DNA from: Pedococcus badiiscoriae
Lineage (GTDB): Bacteria; Actinomycetota; Actinomycetes; Actinomycetales; Dermatophilaceae
DNA: 64,000 nucleotides
Assembly (NCBI RefSeq): GCF_013408925.1
Contig: NZ_JACCAB010000001.1
Coordinates: 558,001-622,000, forward strand
Direction of reading: 5' to 3'
Positions 16,096 through 42,028 of the stretch are shown here, piece by piece (within the stretch, counting starts at the first letter, position 1; every line of letters starts with the position of its first letter). The translations under genes and the position numbers were made by a program. The notes under the pieces are model-generated. The model did not search any database and was not told the origin of the DNA. It saw only the letters and a program-made list of their open reading frames with translations.

Positions 16096-16168
16096 TCTGT
16101 GCACAGAGGTGGCGGTGTCTGCCCCATGAGCAGGTCGGTGGGAGGAACGCTGGATGTCTGTGCACAGA
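16096..16168 (-). repeat. Paired-palindrome intergenic repeat, copy A
   Basis: Two TCTGTGCACAGA palindromes at 16096-16107 and 16157-16168, start-to-start distance 61 bp. The 49 bp between them, read on the minus strand, match copies B (38475) and C (39680), with 35 of 49 bases identical to C by hand alignment. Conserved blocks include TTCCTCCC, GCTCA and GCAGAC. It lies in the kgd downstream region and is in inverted orientation to copies B and C. Confidence 0.85.
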
Positions 16169-35448: not shown

Positions 35449-36401
35449 TGTCTGAGACACCAGCTGCAACCACCGACCGGCCGGGCAAGATCCACGCCCG
35501 GCCGGTCCGGCACCCCGGGCGCTGGGTCGCCGTGGCCGTCATCCTCGTCCTCGTCGCGATGATGGTGAGCTCGGTCCTGACGAACGACAACTGGAACTGG
35601 TCCTTCGCGTTCCAGATCATGGAGCAGCGTCCGGTCATCGACGGACTGTGGAAGGGCACCATCTTCGGCACCTTCGGGGCCATGGTGCTCGGCATCACCA
35701 TCGGCATCACGCTGGCGGTCATGCGCCTGTCGGACAACCCAGTCCTGCGGGGCGTGGCCTTCGTCTACACCTGGTTCTTCCGCGCGATGCCGCGCTATGT
35801 CCTGCTGGCGATCCTGGGTGGCGCCATCGCGGTGCTGTACAACCCGATCCACATCGGGATCCCCTTCGGCCAGCAGCTGGCTCACGCCCTACACCTGTCC
35901 AACGACCTCACGTTCTTCAGCTTCAGCTGGAACGACATCTCGTCCTCGATCTGGATCGGCATCCTCGGTCTCGGACTGTCCGAGGGCGCCTACATGGCCG
36001 AGATCGCCCGCGCCGGCATCCTGTCGGTCGACAAGGGACAGATCGAGGCGGCGCACGCCCTGGGCATGCCGCCCGGCAAGACGATGCGCCGGATCGTGCT
36101 CCCCCAGGCGATGCGCGTGATCGTGCCCCCCACCGGCAACGAGACGATCGCCATGGTGAAGGACACCTCGCTGTTCATCGCGGCGTCGATCATCACCGAG
36201 CTGTACTTCCAGGCCTACGGCTTCGGCCAGCGCAGCTTCCAGATCGTGCCCGGCTTCATGGCCGCCACCCTCTGGTACCTCATCGTGTGCTCGATCCTCA
36301 TGGTCGGCCAGTACTACCTCGAGCGCTACTACGGCCGCGGCTTCGGCGCTCCGTCCAAGGCGACCAGGCGCAAGCTCGCCACGATCACGGCAGGCCACTG
36401 A
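35448..36401 (+). CDS. Amino-acid ABC transporter permease
   Basis: 317-residue HisM/GlnP-type permease. After a short cytoplasmic N-terminus come about five or six membrane spans and the EAA-type loop [34 protein letters not shown] near residue 200 that docks on the ATPase. ATG overlaps the SBP stop (TGATG), and its stop overlaps the ATPase start in the same way. A single permease suggests a homodimer. Confidence 0.92.
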
Positions 36402-37261
36402 TGAGCACCGACACGACCAACGACACCCGCTCCCCCGCGGCGGACAGGGGCGCCCCTCTGGTCCACGCCGTCAACGTCACCAAGGCGTTCCACGGCAACC
36501 AGGTGCTCAAGGGCATCGACATGGACGTCCACCCGGGTGAGGTGGTCTGCCTGCTCGGCCCCTCCGGCTCGGGCAAGACCACGTTCCTGCGGTGCATCAA
36601 CCAGCTCGAGTCGATCGACGGCGGCCGCATCTGGGTCGACGGCGACCTCATGGGGTATGCCGACCGCGGCGGCACGTTGCACCATCTGACCGACAAGCAG
36701 ATCGCCGCCCAGCGTCGCGAGATCGGCATGGTGTTCCAGCGGTTCAACCTCTTCCCGCACAAGACCGCCCTCGAGAACATCATGGAAGCCCCGATCCAGG
36801 TCAAGGGCGAGAAGAAGTCGGAGGTGCGCAAGCGCGCCCTGGCCCTCCTCGATCAGGTCGGCCTCAAGGACAAGCCCAGCGCCTACCCCGCGCAGCTGTC
36901 CGGGGGTCAGCAGCAGCGGATCGCCATCGCGCGTGCCCTTGCCATGCAGCCCAAGCTCATGCTGTTCGACGAGCCCACATCGGCCCTCGACCCCGAGCTC
37001 GTCGGTGAGGTCCTCAAGGTGATGCGCCAGCTCGCCAAGGACGGCATGACGATGATCGTGGTGACCCACGAGATGAGCTTCGCCCGCGAGGTGGCCGACC
37101 GGGTCGTCTTCATGGACGGAGGTGTCGTCGTCGAGGAGGGTCCGCCGAGCGAGGTCATCTCCAACCCCCAGCACGCGCGCACGAAGTCCTTCCTGAGCCG
37201 GATGCGCCAGGAGGAACAGGAGCACGAGCACGGTCAGGCCGAGCCGGGACAGGAGCCCTGA
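36401..37261 (+). CDS. Amino-acid ABC transporter ATP-binding protein
   Basis: 286-residue ATPase of the GlnQ/HisP type: Walker [11 protein letters not shown]-loop [12 protein letters not shown], signature [15 protein letters not shown], Walker [15 protein letters not shown], and switch histidine VVTHEM. A charged Glu/His/Gln-rich tail of about 20 residues ends the protein. It completes the three-gene importer. A GTATGCCG octamer (36655) gives a TAT tyrosine codon in a gene that otherwise prefers TAC. Confidence 0.95.
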
Positions 37262-37273
37262 TGCGGGCTCGGG

Positions 37274-37313
37274 CCTCGGACCGGGCCCTGTTCGTCACCT
37301 CGGACCGGGCCCT
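37274..37313. repeat. 16-bp direct repeat after the ABC transporter operon
   Basis: CCTCGGACCGGGCCCT occurs at 37274-37289 and 37298-37313, 24 bp apart. Each unit contains a GGGCCC core. It lies between the ATPase stop and sodX; function unknown, possibly part of termination. Confidence 0.5.
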
Positions 37314-37394
37314 TGGACCGGCATGTGGCGCCCGGATGCGCGACCGCTGCCTGGTCGGCATGATGGCCCCAAGGCACGACGAGGCGGAGGCTAC

Positions 37395-37769
37395 GTGACG
37401 GTGATCGGTGTGGTCCGGGTTCGAGGTCGTTCCATGGAGCCGACCCTGCACACCGGAGACCGGCTCGTCGTCCTGCGTGGGGCGCCGCCGCGGGTGGGGC
37501 GCCTTGCCATCGTGCGCCTGCCCGACGACTCCGACGGGGTCCGCCGGCCCCTCGCCATCAAGCGCGTGACGATGCGCGACCCGGCCGATCCGAGCCGCTA
37601 CTGGGTGGAGAGCGACAACCAGGCCGCCCCCGGGGTGACCGACTCCTGGACCCACGGCATCGGGTCGCTGGCTCGCGAACAGATCAGGGCACTGGTCCTG
37701 TTCCGCCTGCCCGCGTCGTACCCGGGACGGCGCCTCGCTCGCCGGCTGGTCCGGCGCTTCGCCCGCTGA
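37395..37769 (+). CDS. sodX: Nickel superoxide dismutase maturation protease
   Basis: 124-residue S24/S26-type peptidase with no obvious membrane anchor. The catalytic serine is S13 in RGRSMEPTL and the general-base lysine K56 in LAIKRV. In the family, SodX removes the N-terminal propeptide of SodN so that the new terminal histidine can bind nickel. GTG 37395 has GGAGG four bases upstream; longer starts are rejected. sodN lies 158 bp downstream on the same strand, the diagnostic pairing. Confidence 0.9.
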   Translation: MTVIGVVRVRGRSMEPTLHTGDRLVVLRGAPPRVGRLAIVRLPDDSDGVRRPLAIKRVTMRDPADPSRYWVESDNQAAPGVTDSWTHGIGSLAREQIRALVLFRLPASYPGRRLARRLVRRFAR

Positions 37770-37809
37770 GCGGCCCGGCACCCGGCCGCCGTTGCCCCCG
37801 GAAAGGGCC

Positions 37810-37841
37810 GACCGGCATACCTGACTGCTCGTATGCCGGTC
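37810..37841. terminator. Hairpin between sodX and sodN
   Basis: Perfect 11-bp stem (GACCGGCATAC and its complement) with a ten-base loop. The two arms are a facing pair of the genome octamer CGGCATAC/GTATGCCG. There is no T-tract; it may end sodX transcription or protect RNA ends. Confidence 0.55.
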
Positions 37842-37880
37842 ACGCACCGGGGGTGCCGTGCGGCCCACTGACCTGCGGGG

Positions 37881-37886
37881 TAGGGT
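37881..37886 (+). promoter_or_regulatory. Candidate -10 box of sodN
   Basis: TAGGGT lies 41 bp before the sodN ATG and would give a leader of about 35 nt with its GAAGGGA ribosome site. No nickel-regulator (Nur) operator is recognised with confidence. Confidence 0.35.
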
Positions 37887-37927
37887 CGAAGACGCACGAG
37901 ATCATCCACCTCGCAGAAGGGATTCGC

Positions 37928-38326
37928 ATGCTCTCCCGCCATTTCCGCCCCACTGAGGTCAGCGCCCACTGCGATCTGCCTTGTGGCGTCTACGACCCCG
38001 CGCAGGCACGCATCGAGGCCGAGTCGATCAAGGCGATCATCGCCAAGGTCGCGGACAACAACGACCCCGACTTCCGCACCCGCGCGGTGCTCATCAAGGA
38101 GCAGCGCTCCGAGCTGGTCAAGCACCACCTGTGGGTGCTGTGGACCGACTACTTCAAGGCACCGCACTTCGAGAAGTACCCCGACCTCCACACCTTGTTC
38201 AACGAGGCCACCAAGCTGGCCGGTGCGTCGGGCACCAAGGGCGAGTTCGACGCCGCCAAGGCTGACGAGCTGCTCGCCAAGATCGACCAGATCGACAAGA
38301 TCTTCAAGGAGACCAAGGCCGCCTAG
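37928..38326 (+). CDS. sodN: Nickel-containing superoxide dismutase
   Basis: 132-residue precursor. A 13-residue propeptide (MLSRHFRPTEVSA) precedes the nickel hook HCDLPCGVYDP; cleavage before H14 by SodX exposes the His1, Cys2 and Cys6 nickel ligands. The mature 119-residue four-helix protein forms a hexamer in the family and dismutates superoxide in the cytoplasm. ATG 37928 is preceded by GAAGGGA. No Fe/Mn SOD is in the window. A strong terminator follows at once. Confidence 0.97.
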   Translation: MLSRHFRPTEVSAHCDLPCGVYDPAQARIEAESIKAIIAKVADNNDPDFRTRAVLIKEQRSELVKHHLWVLWTDYFKAPHFEKYPDLHTLFNEATKLAGASGTKGEFDAAKADELLAKIDQIDKIFKETKAA

Positions 38327-38342
38327 GCTCCGCGCTCCGTTC

Positions 38343-38382
38343 CGCGAACGCCCGCCCCGAGCTGTCGGGGCGGGCGTTCGCG
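38343..38382 (+). terminator. Strong intrinsic terminator after sodN
   Basis: An 18-bp perfect stem (arms containing GAACGCCCGCCCCGA and complement) with a GCTG loop, starting 16 bases after the sodN stop. Confidence 0.85.
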
Positions 38383-38700
38383 CTCCCCCGCAACCCCGCG
38401 CCGCGTACCTCCTCCCCCGCCCCGCGCCGCGCCCCCTCCCCCCTCGCCCTGCCGCATACCCCTCGGAGCGCACGTCTGTGCACAGACGTTCCGCCCTCCT
38501 CCCCCTGAGCCGCTCACTGCGCAGACGCCCACACCTCTGTGCACAGACCCGCGCTCACGCGGCACAAGCACCACCAGGTATGCCGTTGCGCCGCCTCAGC
38601 GGCCGCCGGCCTGCACACGTCCCGCCGTCCGTGGCTCGGTATCCACAGGGTCAGCGGCGATCCGTGGCTCGGCGATCCCCAACCGAGGCACCGTGCGTCC
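38383..38700. other. Intergenic stretch before the DUF559 gene
   Basis: About 320 bp with no gene: a C-rich low-complexity stretch (38385-38460), repeat copy B (38475-38547), a GTATGCCG octamer at 38578, and two near-identical short direct repeats containing CCGTGGCTCGG (around 38630 and 38660). No -10 box or strong ribosome site is evident for the following gene. Confidence 0.5.
38475..38547 (+). repeat. Paired-palindrome intergenic repeat, copy B
   Basis: TCTGTGCACAGA at 38475-38486 and 38536-38547, again exactly 61 bp apart. The 49-bp interior matches copy C at 37 of 49 positions and holds a third small palindrome, TGAGC-C-GCTCA, and the GCAGAC block. It lies upstream of the DUF559 gene in the same orientation as copy C, which lies just after that gene. 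Confidence 0.88.
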
Positions 38701-39672
38701 ATGTCAGATGTCCTGCTTGCGCGGGCGGCTCAGTGGGGCGGCGTGCTCAGCAGCGCCGATGCAGCCGTCGTCGGTGTCGACCGCAACGGTCTCCGCTCGC
38801 TGCTCAAGGCCGGCTCGGTCGTCAAGGTCGCGCCGCGCGCCTACGTGCTCGCCAGCGCTCTCGAGAGAGTCACCACCCCCGAGGCTCGCCATCGGCTGAG
38901 CACCCTGGCGATCCTCCGGTCGTTCGGCGAACGCGTGGCGGCGAGCCATCACTCGGCCCTCGCGCTGCACGGACTGCCGTTCTGGCGAGTCGATCCGGAG
39001 GTCTTCCACGTCTCTCGCATCACGGGCCGCTCGGGGCGCAAGCGCGGCACACTCCACATCCACGAGTCCGTCGGCAGGACGAACCTGGTGGTCTTCAGGC
39101 AGAGCGGCGCTGTCGCGACGAGTCCCACCCTAGCCGTCATCGGGACTGCGATGGCCGACGGAGTGGAGGCCGGCATCGTCGCCATGGACGCCGCGTCCCA
39201 CCGCGGCCTGACGTCGGCGGATCTCCTCGAGTCCACGCTCACTGCGATGACGCACGTACCCGACATCTCGCGGGCGCGGCAGGCCTTCTCGCTCGTCGAT
39301 CCCTCGAGTGAGTCCGTCGGCGAGACCCGCACCAGGCTCATCCTGCAGGCGATGCCGGGCAGCCCCCGCGTCGTGCCCCAACAGGTCATCCACGACCGGT
39401 CGGGTCGCGAGGTGGCCCGCGTCGACTTCCTGGTCGGCACCCACGTGGTCGTCGAGTTCGACGGTCGGATGAAGTACGGCATGAGCGGCAACCGGGCAGA
39501 AGAGGACCTCTGGCGCGAGAAGCGGCGAGAGGACGCCCTGCGAGAGCTCGGATACGTCGTCATCCGGCTGGTCTGGTCCGACCTCGACCGACCCGACCAG
39601 GTCACCCAGAGGGTGCTGGCCGCCCTTCGCCAGACCGAGGGCCGCACGACCTTGGCGGGAGTCCGCGGGTGA
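38701..39672 (+). CDS. DUF559/AbiEi-like protein with PD-(D/E)XK (Vsr-like) nuclease fold
   Basis: 323 residues. The N-terminal quarter (WGGVLSSADAAVVGVDRNGL...GSVVKVAPRAYVL) resembles the winged-helix AbiEi antitoxin N-domain. The C-terminal part has VDFLVGTHVVVEFDG with D242, E252, D254 and K258, then EKRREDALRELGYVVIRLVW, matching DUF559, a Vsr-like endonuclease fold. Proteins of this build are numerous in actinobacteria, and their role is unknown. It stands alone, with no AbiEii toxin beside it. It is bracketed by repeat copies B (154 bp upstream) and C (8 bp downstream). The ATG 38701 ribosome site is weak. Confidence 0.78.
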   Translation: MSDVLLARAAQWGGVLSSADAAVVGVDRNGLRSLLKAGSVVKVAPRAYVLASALERVTTPEARHRLSTLAILRSFGERVAASHHSALALHGLPFWRVDPEVFHVSRITGRSGRKRGTLHIHESVGRTNLVVFRQSGAVATSPTLAVIGTAMADGVEAGIVAMDAASHRGLTSADLLESTLTAMTHVPDISRARQAFSLVDPSSESVGETRTRLILQAMPGSPRVVPQQVIHDRSGREVARVDFLVGTHVVVEFDGRMKYGMSGNRAEEDLWREKRREDALRELGYVVIRLVWSDLDRPDQVTQRVLAALRQTEGRTTLAGVRG

Positions 39673-39679
39673 GCGCACC

Positions 39680-39752
39680 TCTGTGCACAGACCTTCCGAG
39701 TTCCTCCCGCTGAGCAGCTCAGCGAGCAGACGCCTCAACCTCTGTGCACAGA
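39680..39752 (+). repeat. Paired-palindrome intergenic repeat, copy C
   Basis: TCTGTGCACAGA at 39680-39691 and 39741-39752, 61 bp apart, beginning eight bases after the DUF559 stop. The interior carries TTCCTCCC, the palindrome TGAGC-A-GCTCA and GCAGACGCC, aligned without gaps to copies A and B. Confidence 0.88.
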
Positions 39753-39771
39753 CTTCCGCTCAGAGGGTCGG

Positions 39772-39815
39772 GGGCTCGGCGGCTCGGGCGCTTCCGCTCA
39801 GGCGCCGCCGAGCCC
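39772..39815. terminator. Hairpin downstream of the DUF559 gene
   Basis: 12-bp perfect stem (GGGCTCGGCGGC and complement) around a 20-base loop, after repeat copy C and before the symporter operon. It lacks a T-tract; it is a probable terminator. Confidence 0.55.
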
Positions 39816-39837
39816 GCCCGTGACCTGCGGTGACGTT

Positions 39838-39851
39838 TGTGGCATCCCACA
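39838..39851. promoter_or_regulatory. Possible operator before the DUF3311/symporter operon
   Basis: Inverted repeat TGTGG-N4-CCACA, 20 bp upstream of a TAACGT box. It could bind a regulator; the family is not identifiable, and its spacing differs from CRP-type sites. Confidence 0.3.
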
Positions 39852-39870
39852 GTTACTGACGAGTCGGGCA

Positions 39871-39876
39871 TAACGT
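39871..39876 (+). promoter_or_regulatory. Candidate -10 box of the DUF3311/symporter operon
   Basis: TAACGT, 53 bp before the GTG start of the DUF3311 gene, in a local AT-richer stretch. The -35 region is weak. Confidence 0.35.
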
Positions 39877-39929
39877 ACATCGCGAGCTGCCCATCGGCAG
39901 TCGATCCTTCTCCGTGCGGAGGTTTGAAG

Positions 39930-40214
39930 GTGAGTACCGACAACGTGGTCGATCACGACACCGTCCCCCCGGCCAACAAGGCACTGCTGGCGGTAGCCGG
40001 CGTCCTGCTGGCCATCCCGATGATCGCCCTCCTCTGGGTGGGCAGCTATGCGAAGAAGGATCCCGAGCTCTGGGGCTTCCCGTTCTTCATCTGGTACCAG
40101 TTCATGTGGGTCTTCCTGTGCTCGGCGATGACGTTCACGGCCTACAAGCTGGTCCTCAAGGCACGACCGCACCGCCCGATGACGAACGTCGACAGCAGGG
40201 AGTCCGGCCGATGA
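39930..40214 (+). CDS. DUF3311 small membrane protein
   Basis: 94-residue protein with two membrane segments (ALLAVAGVLLAIPMIALLWVG and an aromatic second one, FIWYQFMWVFLCSAMTF). It matches DUF3311, a small protein typically encoded directly before sodium:solute symporters, where it probably acts as an accessory subunit. GTG 39930 has GGAGG seven bases upstream. Its TGA overlaps the symporter ATG (ATGA), so they are translationally coupled. Confidence 0.88.
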   Translation: MSTDNVVDHDTVPPANKALLAVAGVLLAIPMIALLWVGSYAKKDPELWGFPFFIWYQFMWVFLCSAMTFTAYKLVLKARPHRPMTNVDSRESGR

Positions 40215-41887
40215 ACGCCCTCGCACCAACCGCGGCCCACACCGGAGTCAACGGCGTCGCCCTGACCGTCCTCATCGTGCTGTTCGTCCTCGTGACCGGC
40301 ATGGGCTTCTGGGCCACCCGCTGGCGGCGCGCCGACAGCATGGAGTCCCTCGACGAGTGGGGCCTGGGTGGCCGACGGTTCGGCACCTGGGTGACCTGGT
40401 TCCTCCTCGGAGGTGACCTCTACACGGCATACACCTTCGTGGCGGTGCCGGCGGCCATGTTCGCGCTGGGTTCGGTCAGCGGGTTCTTCGCCGTGCCCTA
40501 CACGATCGTGCTCTACCCGATCATCTTCATCTTCATGTCGCGGCTCTGGTCGGTCAGCCACCGCCACGGCTACGTCACTCCGGCCGACTTCGTGAAGGGT
40601 CGGTATGGCTCGCGCGGCCTGTCTCTCGCAGTGTCGATCACCGGGATCCTCGCGACGATGCCCTACATCGCGCTGCAGCTCATCGGCATCCAGGCCGTCC
40701 TGGAGGTCGCCGGAGTCGGTGGCAGCAACGCGCTGGCCAAGGACCTGCCGCTGTTCATCGCGTTCGCCCTGCTGGCGGCCTACACGTACTCCAGCGGCCT
40801 GCGCGCACCGGCGGTGATCGCCTTCGTGAAGGACACCCTGATCTACCTCGTCATCATCGTCGCGGTCATCTACCTGCCCACGAAGGTGGGTGGCTGGGAC
40901 CACATCTTCAGTGCGGCGCAGCACAAGATGGCCAAGCCGAGCGTCGCCAACCCGGCCAAGCCGACCGGTGCGTTCATCCCGAGCAACCAGCAGTACTGGG
41001 CCTACGCGACGCTCGCGTTCGGCTCCGCGCTGGCGCTGTTCATGTACCCCCACTCGATCACGGCGACCCTGTCGAGCTCGAGCCGCAACACGATCCGGCG
41101 CAACGCCTCGATCCTGCCGGCCTACTCCTTCGTGCTCGGCCTGCTGGCCCTGCTCGGCTGGGTGGCCATCGCGGCCGGCACCAAGCCGATCGGCCTGGAC
41201 GGCAAGCCGAACGCGCAGCTGGTCATCCCACAGCTGTTCGAGGACAAGTTCCCGAGCTGGTTCGCCGGGGTCGCGTTCGCGGCCGTGGCGATCGGAGCAC
41301 TGGTCCCGGCAGCCATCATGTCGATCGCGGCAGCCAACACCTTCACCCGCAACATCTACCGCGACTGGATCAAGCCCGACGCCACGCACGCCCAGGAGGC
41401 CAAGGTCGGCAAGCTGGTCTCGTTGCTGGTCAAGGCATTCGCGCTCGTCTTCGTCCTCGCCCTGGACAAGCAGAACGCGATCAACTTCCAGCTCCTCGGC
41501 GGGATCTGGATCCTTCAGACGCTGCCGGCCATCGTCGTCGGCCTCTACACCCGCTGGTTCCACAAGTGGGCGCTCCTCGCCGGCTGGGCGGTGGGCATGG
41601 TCTACGGCACGATCGCTGCCTACAACGTCATCAACCCGACCACCAAGGGCCACTTCGGCGGCTCGCTGGCGATGATCCCCATGATCGGCCAGATGGGCTA
41701 CATCGCGATGACCGCGCTGGTGATCAACCTGCTCATCGCGACCGTCGCCACGGTCCTGCTCAAGGCCCTCAAGGTGGCGGGGGGCCCGGACGAGACGATC
41801 AAGGGTGACTACTTCGCGGACGCCGGCGACCCCCGGGTCGAGAAGCACCTCGCGATGGACGCGCACCTCACCACCGGGGCACCCTAG
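40211..41887 (+). CDS. Sodium:solute symporter, monocarboxylate (MctP-like) permease
   Basis: 558-residue member of the SSS family with about 13 membrane segments. GLGGRRFGTWVTWFLLGGDLYTAYTF near residue 50 and SRLWSVSHRHGYVTPADFVKGRYGS near 115 are typical. The pairing with DUF3311 and the sequence resemble monocarboxylate uptake permeases (lactate, pyruvate, acetate or propionate); the exact substrate is inferred. A strong hairpin follows, separating it from the convergent HD-domain operon. Confidence 0.88.
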   Translation: MNALAPTAAHTGVNGVALTVLIVLFVLVTGMGFWATRWRRADSMESLDEWGLGGRRFGTWVTWFLLGGDLYTAYTFVAVPAAMFALGSVSGFFAVPYTIVLYPIIFIFMSRLWSVSHRHGYVTPADFVKGRYGSRGLSLAVSITGILATMPYIALQLIGIQAVLEVAGVGGSNALAKDLPLFIAFALLAAYTYSSGLRAPAVIAFVKDTLIYLVIIVAVIYLPTKVGGWDHIFSAAQHKMAKPSVANPAKPTGAFIPSNQQYWAYATLAFGSALALFMYPHSITATLSSSSRNTIRRNASILPAYSFVLGLLALLGWVAIAAGTKPIGLDGKPNAQLVIPQLFEDKFPSWFAGVAFAAVAIGALVPAAIMSIAAANTFTRNIYRDWIKPDATHAQEAKVGKLVSLLVKAFALVFVLALDKQNAINFQLLGGIWILQTLPAIVVGLYTRWFHKWALLAGWAVGMVYGTIAAYNVINPTTKGHFGGSLAMIPMIGQMGYIAMTALVINLLIATVATVLLKALKVAGGPDETIKGDYFADAGDPRVEKHLAMDAHLTTGAP

Positions 41888-41909
41888 CCGCGGCGCCCAT
41901 CCCACCGCG

Positions 41910-41955
41910 TCGGGCGGTGTCGGGACCGGTTCGTCACGGTCTCGACACCGCCCGA
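41910..41955. terminator. Bidirectional terminator between symporter and HD-domain genes
   Basis: 13-bp perfect outer stem (TCGGGCGGTGTCG and complement) with an inner GACCG/CGGTC stem separated by one mismatched pair; near-symmetric, between two convergent genes. Confidence 0.75.
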
Positions 41956-42028
41956 TTCGCTTGGGCCCCAGCGCCTCTCGTCGCTGCGGGCGCGGACGGG
42001 CACCGCGACGACGAGGTATGCCGCGTGG

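Follow-up and report, generated by a model that had tools for sequence, protein, structure and literature searches.

The sodN region of Pedococcus badiiscoriae holds a gene for a predicted nuclease that stands between two copies of the same palindromic repeat, which raises the question of whether such a gene and such a repeat belong together, and what the one might do to the other. The window analysed is a stretch of 64,000 bp (positions 558,001-622,000) of the 3,386,878-bp single contig of this genome, called G000 here, and genes and start codons were taken from our own simple GC-based caller and not from the annotation. The repeat is a 73-bp paired-palindrome element with outer 12-mers TCTGTGCACAGA, which we called family I. 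Copy B (38475..38547, + strand, 12-mers at 38475-38486 and 38536-38547) lies 153 bp before the start codon of the gene, and copy C (39680..39752, + strand, 12-mers at 39680-39691 and 39741-39752) begins at the eighth base past its stop, the gene ending at 39672, close behind it as the first-pass annotation of this DNA had reported. A solitary copy A (16096..16168, no strand assigned, 12-mers at 16096-16107 and 16157-16168) is found 34 bp 3' of a 2-oxoglutarate dehydrogenase gene. In all three copies the 12-mers are exactly 61 bp apart and enclose a 49-bp interior, and the two flanking repeats, first described with this same geometry, are real and correctly placed. They had also been read as sharing one orientation, and they do match better that way (83.6% over 73 bp vs 76.2% over 42 bp with one reversed), but the element is nearly dyad-symmetric, so its orientation carries little meaning. 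Base composition alone would give 0.0016 exact 12-mers in the 64 kb and 0.08 in the genome, against 6 and 20 counted.

The bracketed gene (38701..39672, + strand, start ATG) encodes a DUF559/AbiEi-like protein of 323 aa. On its left lie sodN, for nickel superoxide dismutase (37928..38326, + strand), and a hairpin that is probably the sodN terminator (38343..38382, + strand), and on its right a DUF3311 gene (39924..40214, + strand). The protein is predicted to join an AbiEi-like module (residues ~1-200; 38701..39300, + strand) to a C-terminal nuclease domain of the Vsr/PD-(D/E)XK type, resembling homing endonucleases (residues 203-314, with E208, D242, E252, D254 and K258; 39307..39642, + strand). 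Both an AbiEi-like DNA-binding antitoxin fold and a Vsr/PD-(D/E)XK fold with conserved acidic catalytic residues were recognised in the window protein, in agreement with the nuclease-like fold around D242, E252, D254 and K258 that had been proposed for it. E208, D242 and E252 are present in 89 of 89 sequences and invariant in 78 homologues. The Pfam DUF559 and AbiEi_4 models score below their cut-offs for this protein, AbiEi_4 passing its cut-off in the paralogue P0082.

In the 11 genomes of the genus the DUF3311 gene lies behind sodN, sometimes with another gene between them, and an orthologue of the DUF559 gene occupies this slot in three (G000, P. bigeumensis and G004) and is absent in eight. 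The G004 orthologue (L163:3354-4293) is frameshifted and split over two frames, preceded by a degenerate family I element (E 2e-8) and followed by a doubtful one (E 0.034), and this gene and its flanking elements may be decaying together. The P. bigeumensis orthologue has no family I element beside it and is flanked by two copies of another paired repeat, running from GACTTCGCAGA to TCTGCGAAGTC, which are 80.6% identical to each other and have no further clear copy in 147 kb of that genome; the repeat dispersed in P. bigeumensis is thus a different one from that bracketing its DUF559 gene.

Since this orthologue is bracketed by another repeat pair, we tested DUF559 relatives across the genus, comparing with each other the two 300-bp flanks of each gene, for 28 of them and for 196 control genes (L114, the same broken gene as L103, and L108, with N in a flank, were dropped, while L103 and L120 were kept as misses). 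An exact repeat of at least 16 bp is shared by the two flanks in 18 of 28 DUF559 relatives vs 2 of 196 controls, the two being the window gene itself and a gene of the congener G001 that has a family I copy on each side; at 12 bp the counts are 21/28 vs 15/196. Outside the genus, 48 genomes and G001 were searched and 69 of 89 matches examined, from which loci with short flanks were dropped (4/69 in the exact-repeat test, 5/69 in the gapped alignment). Exact repeats of at least 16 bp were found there at 29 of 65 DUF559 genes vs 1 of 42 neighbouring genes. With gapped local alignment of the flanks and a threshold of 46.09, set at the 99th percentile of the scores that 600 mismatched pairs of flanks gave, 66 of 92 DUF559 relatives are bracketed (23/28 in the genus, 43/64 outside), and only 2 of 485 genes from random stretches of three genomes pass. 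Both of these are DUF559 members, one a known gene and the other a remote member afterwards matched by profile (E 4.8e-21), and a third DUF559 gene among these controls (L128) fails the threshold, so that the exact figure for non-DUF559 genes is 0/482. Fisher's test, computed with 0/483 controls, gives P = 1e-65, a value that, like any such P value, overstates independence because genes of one genus are related. At a looser threshold (95%, score >31) 70 of 92 DUF559 relatives pass vs 28 of 485 controls. The remaining 26 of 92 DUF559 genes, including the frameshifted G004 orthologue and L128 of G000, have no flank match above the 46.09 threshold, and in Tsukamurella (Mycobacteriales) one gene is bracketed by a 78-bp repeat and a second gene is not. 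The association of gene and flanking palindromic repeats, proposed for this single locus, is therefore upheld far outside it, for most of the DUF559 relatives compared and, at the 46.09 threshold, for none of the 482 other genes.

The bracketing sequences change from gene to gene and from species to species while the two flanks of one gene match; different groups of related genes have different repeats, and in several groups the members have similar ones. In the 66 bracketed units the median aligned length is 73 bp, the best match is between inverted copies in 42 and direct copies in 24, and the downstream copy starts a median of 12 bp past the stop codon. Most of the brackets fold well, as strong hairpins (median z near -3.8 vs -0.35 for controls, with simple letter shuffles; z below -2 in 71% and 65% of the bracket segments vs 15% of controls), and several are near-perfect hairpins of about 70 bp. 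Across five sequences of family II, the repeat at L112, five pairs show changes on both sides, and across four sequences of a second hairpin family two pairs do, both being raw counts with no shuffle baseline. An upstream co-directed together with a downstream convergent neighbour is seen in 39 of the 60 units with both neighbours called (out of 66), vs 85 of 476 control genes.

Dispersed intergenic copies exist for family I, and among the other families sampled some have them and some do not. In about 29% of G000, two solitary copies of family II were found (E 2e-12 and 1e-4), along with one sequence related to the downstream flank of L128 (E 8e-7), but none of family IV (L123); with three repeats of other species as decoys, no match in the same portion was better than E 0.16. 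In about 10% of the genome G067, solitary copies were seen for two families, one copy for the first (E 5e-24) and two for the second (E 1e-12 and 3e-8); a match for L211 (E 2e-4) lies inside a gene, and in G083 one weak match (E 4e-4) was obtained for six genes. Swapped decoy queries reached E 0.003 at best.

Family I itself forms nine pairs at 61-bp spacing in the 3.39 Mb of G000, both 12-mers being exact in all, and a search allowing up to three mismatches in the 24 bases gave no further pair. Two more, partial copies keep one palindrome (1,336,817 and 1,541,011). Two of these 11 copies bracket the DUF559/AbiEi-like gene and the other nine lie away from it; the copies are not restricted to one region of the genome, which rejects a reading as chromosome-domain sites. 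In P. bigeumensis 13 pairs are exact and three more have one mismatch, and in G001 eight pairs lie within three mismatches, as the variant TCTGYGCRCAGA. In a profile search that scored up to 150 candidates per genome, the G001 copies number at least about 17, and the matches listed include a few additional ones in P. bigeumensis, a few in G004 and a single one in G002; in the other six of the 11 genus genomes the best match is weak (E 0.0155 or worse). Among 186 genomes of the bacterial family, searched with stricter filters and with the best 26 candidates per genome scored, family I was found at E 1e-5 in five, all in its own genus. In a six-protein tree its bearers fall into two groups, G000 with P. 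bigeumensis, and G004 with G001 and G002. The first-pass annotation had proposed looking for clustering of the element around DUF559 genes, and had taken independent spread of the repeat, or orthologues without it, to speak against a link. As far as the sequence TCTGTGCACAGA is concerned both were encountered: most G000 copies lie elsewhere, G001 keeps its ~17 copies with a sodN slot devoid of a DUF559 orthologue, and the P. bigeumensis orthologue lacks family I, carrying instead its own pair.

Several positions of family I are common to two species: a PaaK-side and a CynX-side site in G000 and P. bigeumensis, a site at an LLM gene in P. bigeumensis and G001, and one at an AI-2E gene in G000 and G001, these neighbour names being our own reading of the sequences. 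The PaaK-side gap measures 42-78 bp in six congeners without the element, vs 176 and 167 bp, and three other congeners have a different sequence there. One congener, G010 (L157), has another repeated sequence with N stretches at the PaaK-side site, in the gap upstream of the MTTKTTAEAW gene. In the aligned copies the two outer 12-mers are invariant, the 11-bp spacers vary, and the centre is a 27-bp dyad, which in P. bigeumensis is close to CTGCGCAGAGACCNGGTCTCTGCGCAG; mean identity between the G000 copies is 1.0 in the outer parts, 0.40 in the spacers and 0.66 in the centre. The G000 copies look old and fixed, with saturated spacers and some sites common to more than one species; movement would thus be rare or have ended, with strong selection still acting on the outer palindromes. 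No recent insertion was seen in this comparison, in which each species is represented by one genome. These comparisons point to family I as a set of old, static, selected sites.

The explanation that we consider best, with moderate confidence and including the nicking and past copying that it proposes, is that of a nuclease and its cognate repeat, analogous to REPIN-RAYT systems but with an unrelated enzyme. We envisage an actinobacterial nuclease family in which each member would be paired with its own short dyad-symmetric repeat. The AbiEi module would bind the repeat and, on the upstream copy, might also repress its own gene as AbiEi antitoxins do; the nuclease would nick the repeat or its extruded hairpin; and, with less confidence, such nicking could have allowed the repeats to spread to new sites by copying, occasionally together with the gene between them as a complete repeat-gene-repeat unit, in the manner proposed for REPINs and RAYTs. 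The DUF559 protein likely recognises the repeat that brackets it, and may move it; the AbiEi module is a plausible means of recognising inverted repeats, and the Vsr-like domain of nicking them.

PMC3116915 and PMC3733652 describe REPIN-RAYT genes that have their own palindromic repeat or long inverted repeats at their flanks, solitary hairpin copies outside genes, often in 3' or convergent positions, and a pairing of different genes with different repeats (REPtrons, TIRtrons). The bracketed DUF559 genes share with them an own palindromic repeat on both sides, hairpins, 3' intergenic placement and, in some families, solitary copies elsewhere. The resemblance to REP elements and RAYTs noted at first sight is one of layout: the predicted enzyme combines a Vsr-type nuclease with an AbiEi module and is not an HUH Y1 transposase, and family I has about ten copies per genome. 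The enzyme being unrelated and no RAYT gene (Y1_Tnp, PF01797) having been found in the 11 genus genomes, the unit is not a member of REPIN-RAYT. Its closest nuclease kin are the Vsr repair nuclease and the catalytic domain of the homing endonuclease I-Bth0305I, from which it differs in that its nuclease domain is joined to a DNA-binding module and associated with a repeat. From AbiE type IV toxin-antitoxin systems, with which the protein shares the predicted AbiEi-like fold, it differs in the extra nuclease domain, in repeats that lie on both sides and elsewhere, and in having sodN and DUF3311 as neighbours without an adjacent AbiEii nucleotidyltransferase toxin.

In a rather unlikely alternative, nothing moves and the repeats are simply sites through which the AbiEi module controls the gene that encodes it and a small regulon, distant and downstream copies being regulatory as well. 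AbiEi and Rv2827c repress their own promoters through inverted repeats, which AbiEi binds, according to PMC7319586, and the exact outer palindromes of the nine G000 pairs, the fixed 61-bp spacing and the lack of hairpin covariation are as expected of protein sites. Dyads match no better within a family I element than between elements, and its hairpin pair counts are at shuffle level with no covariation beyond it, so a DNA site recognised as dyads fits better than a maintained RNA hairpin, which we rejected in spite of good folding since the spacers do not covary; an Rfam search of positions 36000-42000 of the window gave a single sub-threshold match, located elsewhere. What a purely regulatory role accommodates poorly is the location of the copies, at 3' ends of genes and between convergent genes: among the 22 exact pairs that G000 and P. 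bigeumensis have together, classed by our own reading of their neighbours, 12 lie between convergent and 2 between divergent genes, vs 24 and 76 of 237 control gaps sampled in G000. It also leaves unexplained the copy after the stop codon of so many members and the near-perfect hairpins of ~70 bp.

We regard as improbable that the unit is a miniature insertion element, which would move as a block bounded by its repeats and would have left the solitary copies as remnants, an idea favoured by the presence of the orthologue in three of 11 slots and by the brackets matching best when inverted in 42 of 66 units. The brackets nevertheless occur in both orientations, the orthologues keep the same slot in three species, each genus genome holds one to five dissimilar relatives (E 1e-5) and not recent copies, and the target duplications of insertion sequences were not recognised in the few loci read by eye. 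Still less probable is that the repeats are bidirectional transcription terminators or hairpins at mRNA ends, insulating a variable gene and unrelated to its protein, a reading that would account for strong hairpins, convergent placement and a downstream copy just past the stop codon, but not for matching two-sided repeats missing from 482 other genes, for a lineage-specific shared sequence that terminators do not need, or for family I spacers that pair no better than chance.

Extending the preferred reading of a nuclease with its cognate repeat, we tentatively suggest that actinobacteria possess a class of repeat-mobilising systems whose Vsr/homing-endonuclease-type enzymes, guided by AbiEi modules, recognise and copy their own hairpin repeats, an evolutionarily independent counterpart of REPIN-RAYT. 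DUF559 genes with AbiEi domains occur in 37 of the 49 actinobacterial genomes searched, currently named AbiEi family antitoxin domain-containing protein, hypothetical protein or very-short-patch-repair endonuclease, and a literature search, thin on subscription papers and preprints, brought up no paper that we recognised as dealing with bracketing repeats at these genes. If each of these genes has its own hairpin repeat, each family member comes with a ready DNA substrate to test. The pairing would then also be a second, independent example of a host-retained nuclease coexisting with dispersed palindromes, would explain a class of low-copy intergenic palindromes in actinobacterial genomes, and would offer nucleases whose built-in preferences for sequence are diverse.

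Some further observations concern the surroundings of these sequences. A phage or plasmid origin of family I was rejected: a search of viral contigs gave no exact 12-mer pair, and a P. bigeumensis copy used as query had no match in plasmids or phages. Among plasmids the window protein matched two Tsukamurella records, and the paralogue P0082 had no match in plasmids or phages. The same 12-mer pairs occur with other total lengths in Tannerellaceae (78 bp), Prevotellaceae (77 bp), Okeania (84 bp) and Arcanobacterium (72 bp). Those of a Tannerellaceae MAG (Bacteroidota; L026, L034, L037 and L042), with TCTGTGCACAGA pairs 66 bp apart spanning 78 bp, are perhaps an unrelated repeat family of similar form. 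In G001 an LLM-type gene that is not a DUF559 member (L072:2466-3530) is bracketed by two family I copies, the sole such non-DUF559 case among the 196 control genes. At L119 of G008 and L130 of G002, several copies of GGCCACT-type repeats surround DUF559 genes in clusters and not as single brackets, with a similar downstream neighbour sequence in both. Finally, a remote DUF559-family gene of G067 (L298:16676-17764) was found only through its matching hairpin flanks, and bracketing may thus serve as an aid in finding diverged members of the family.
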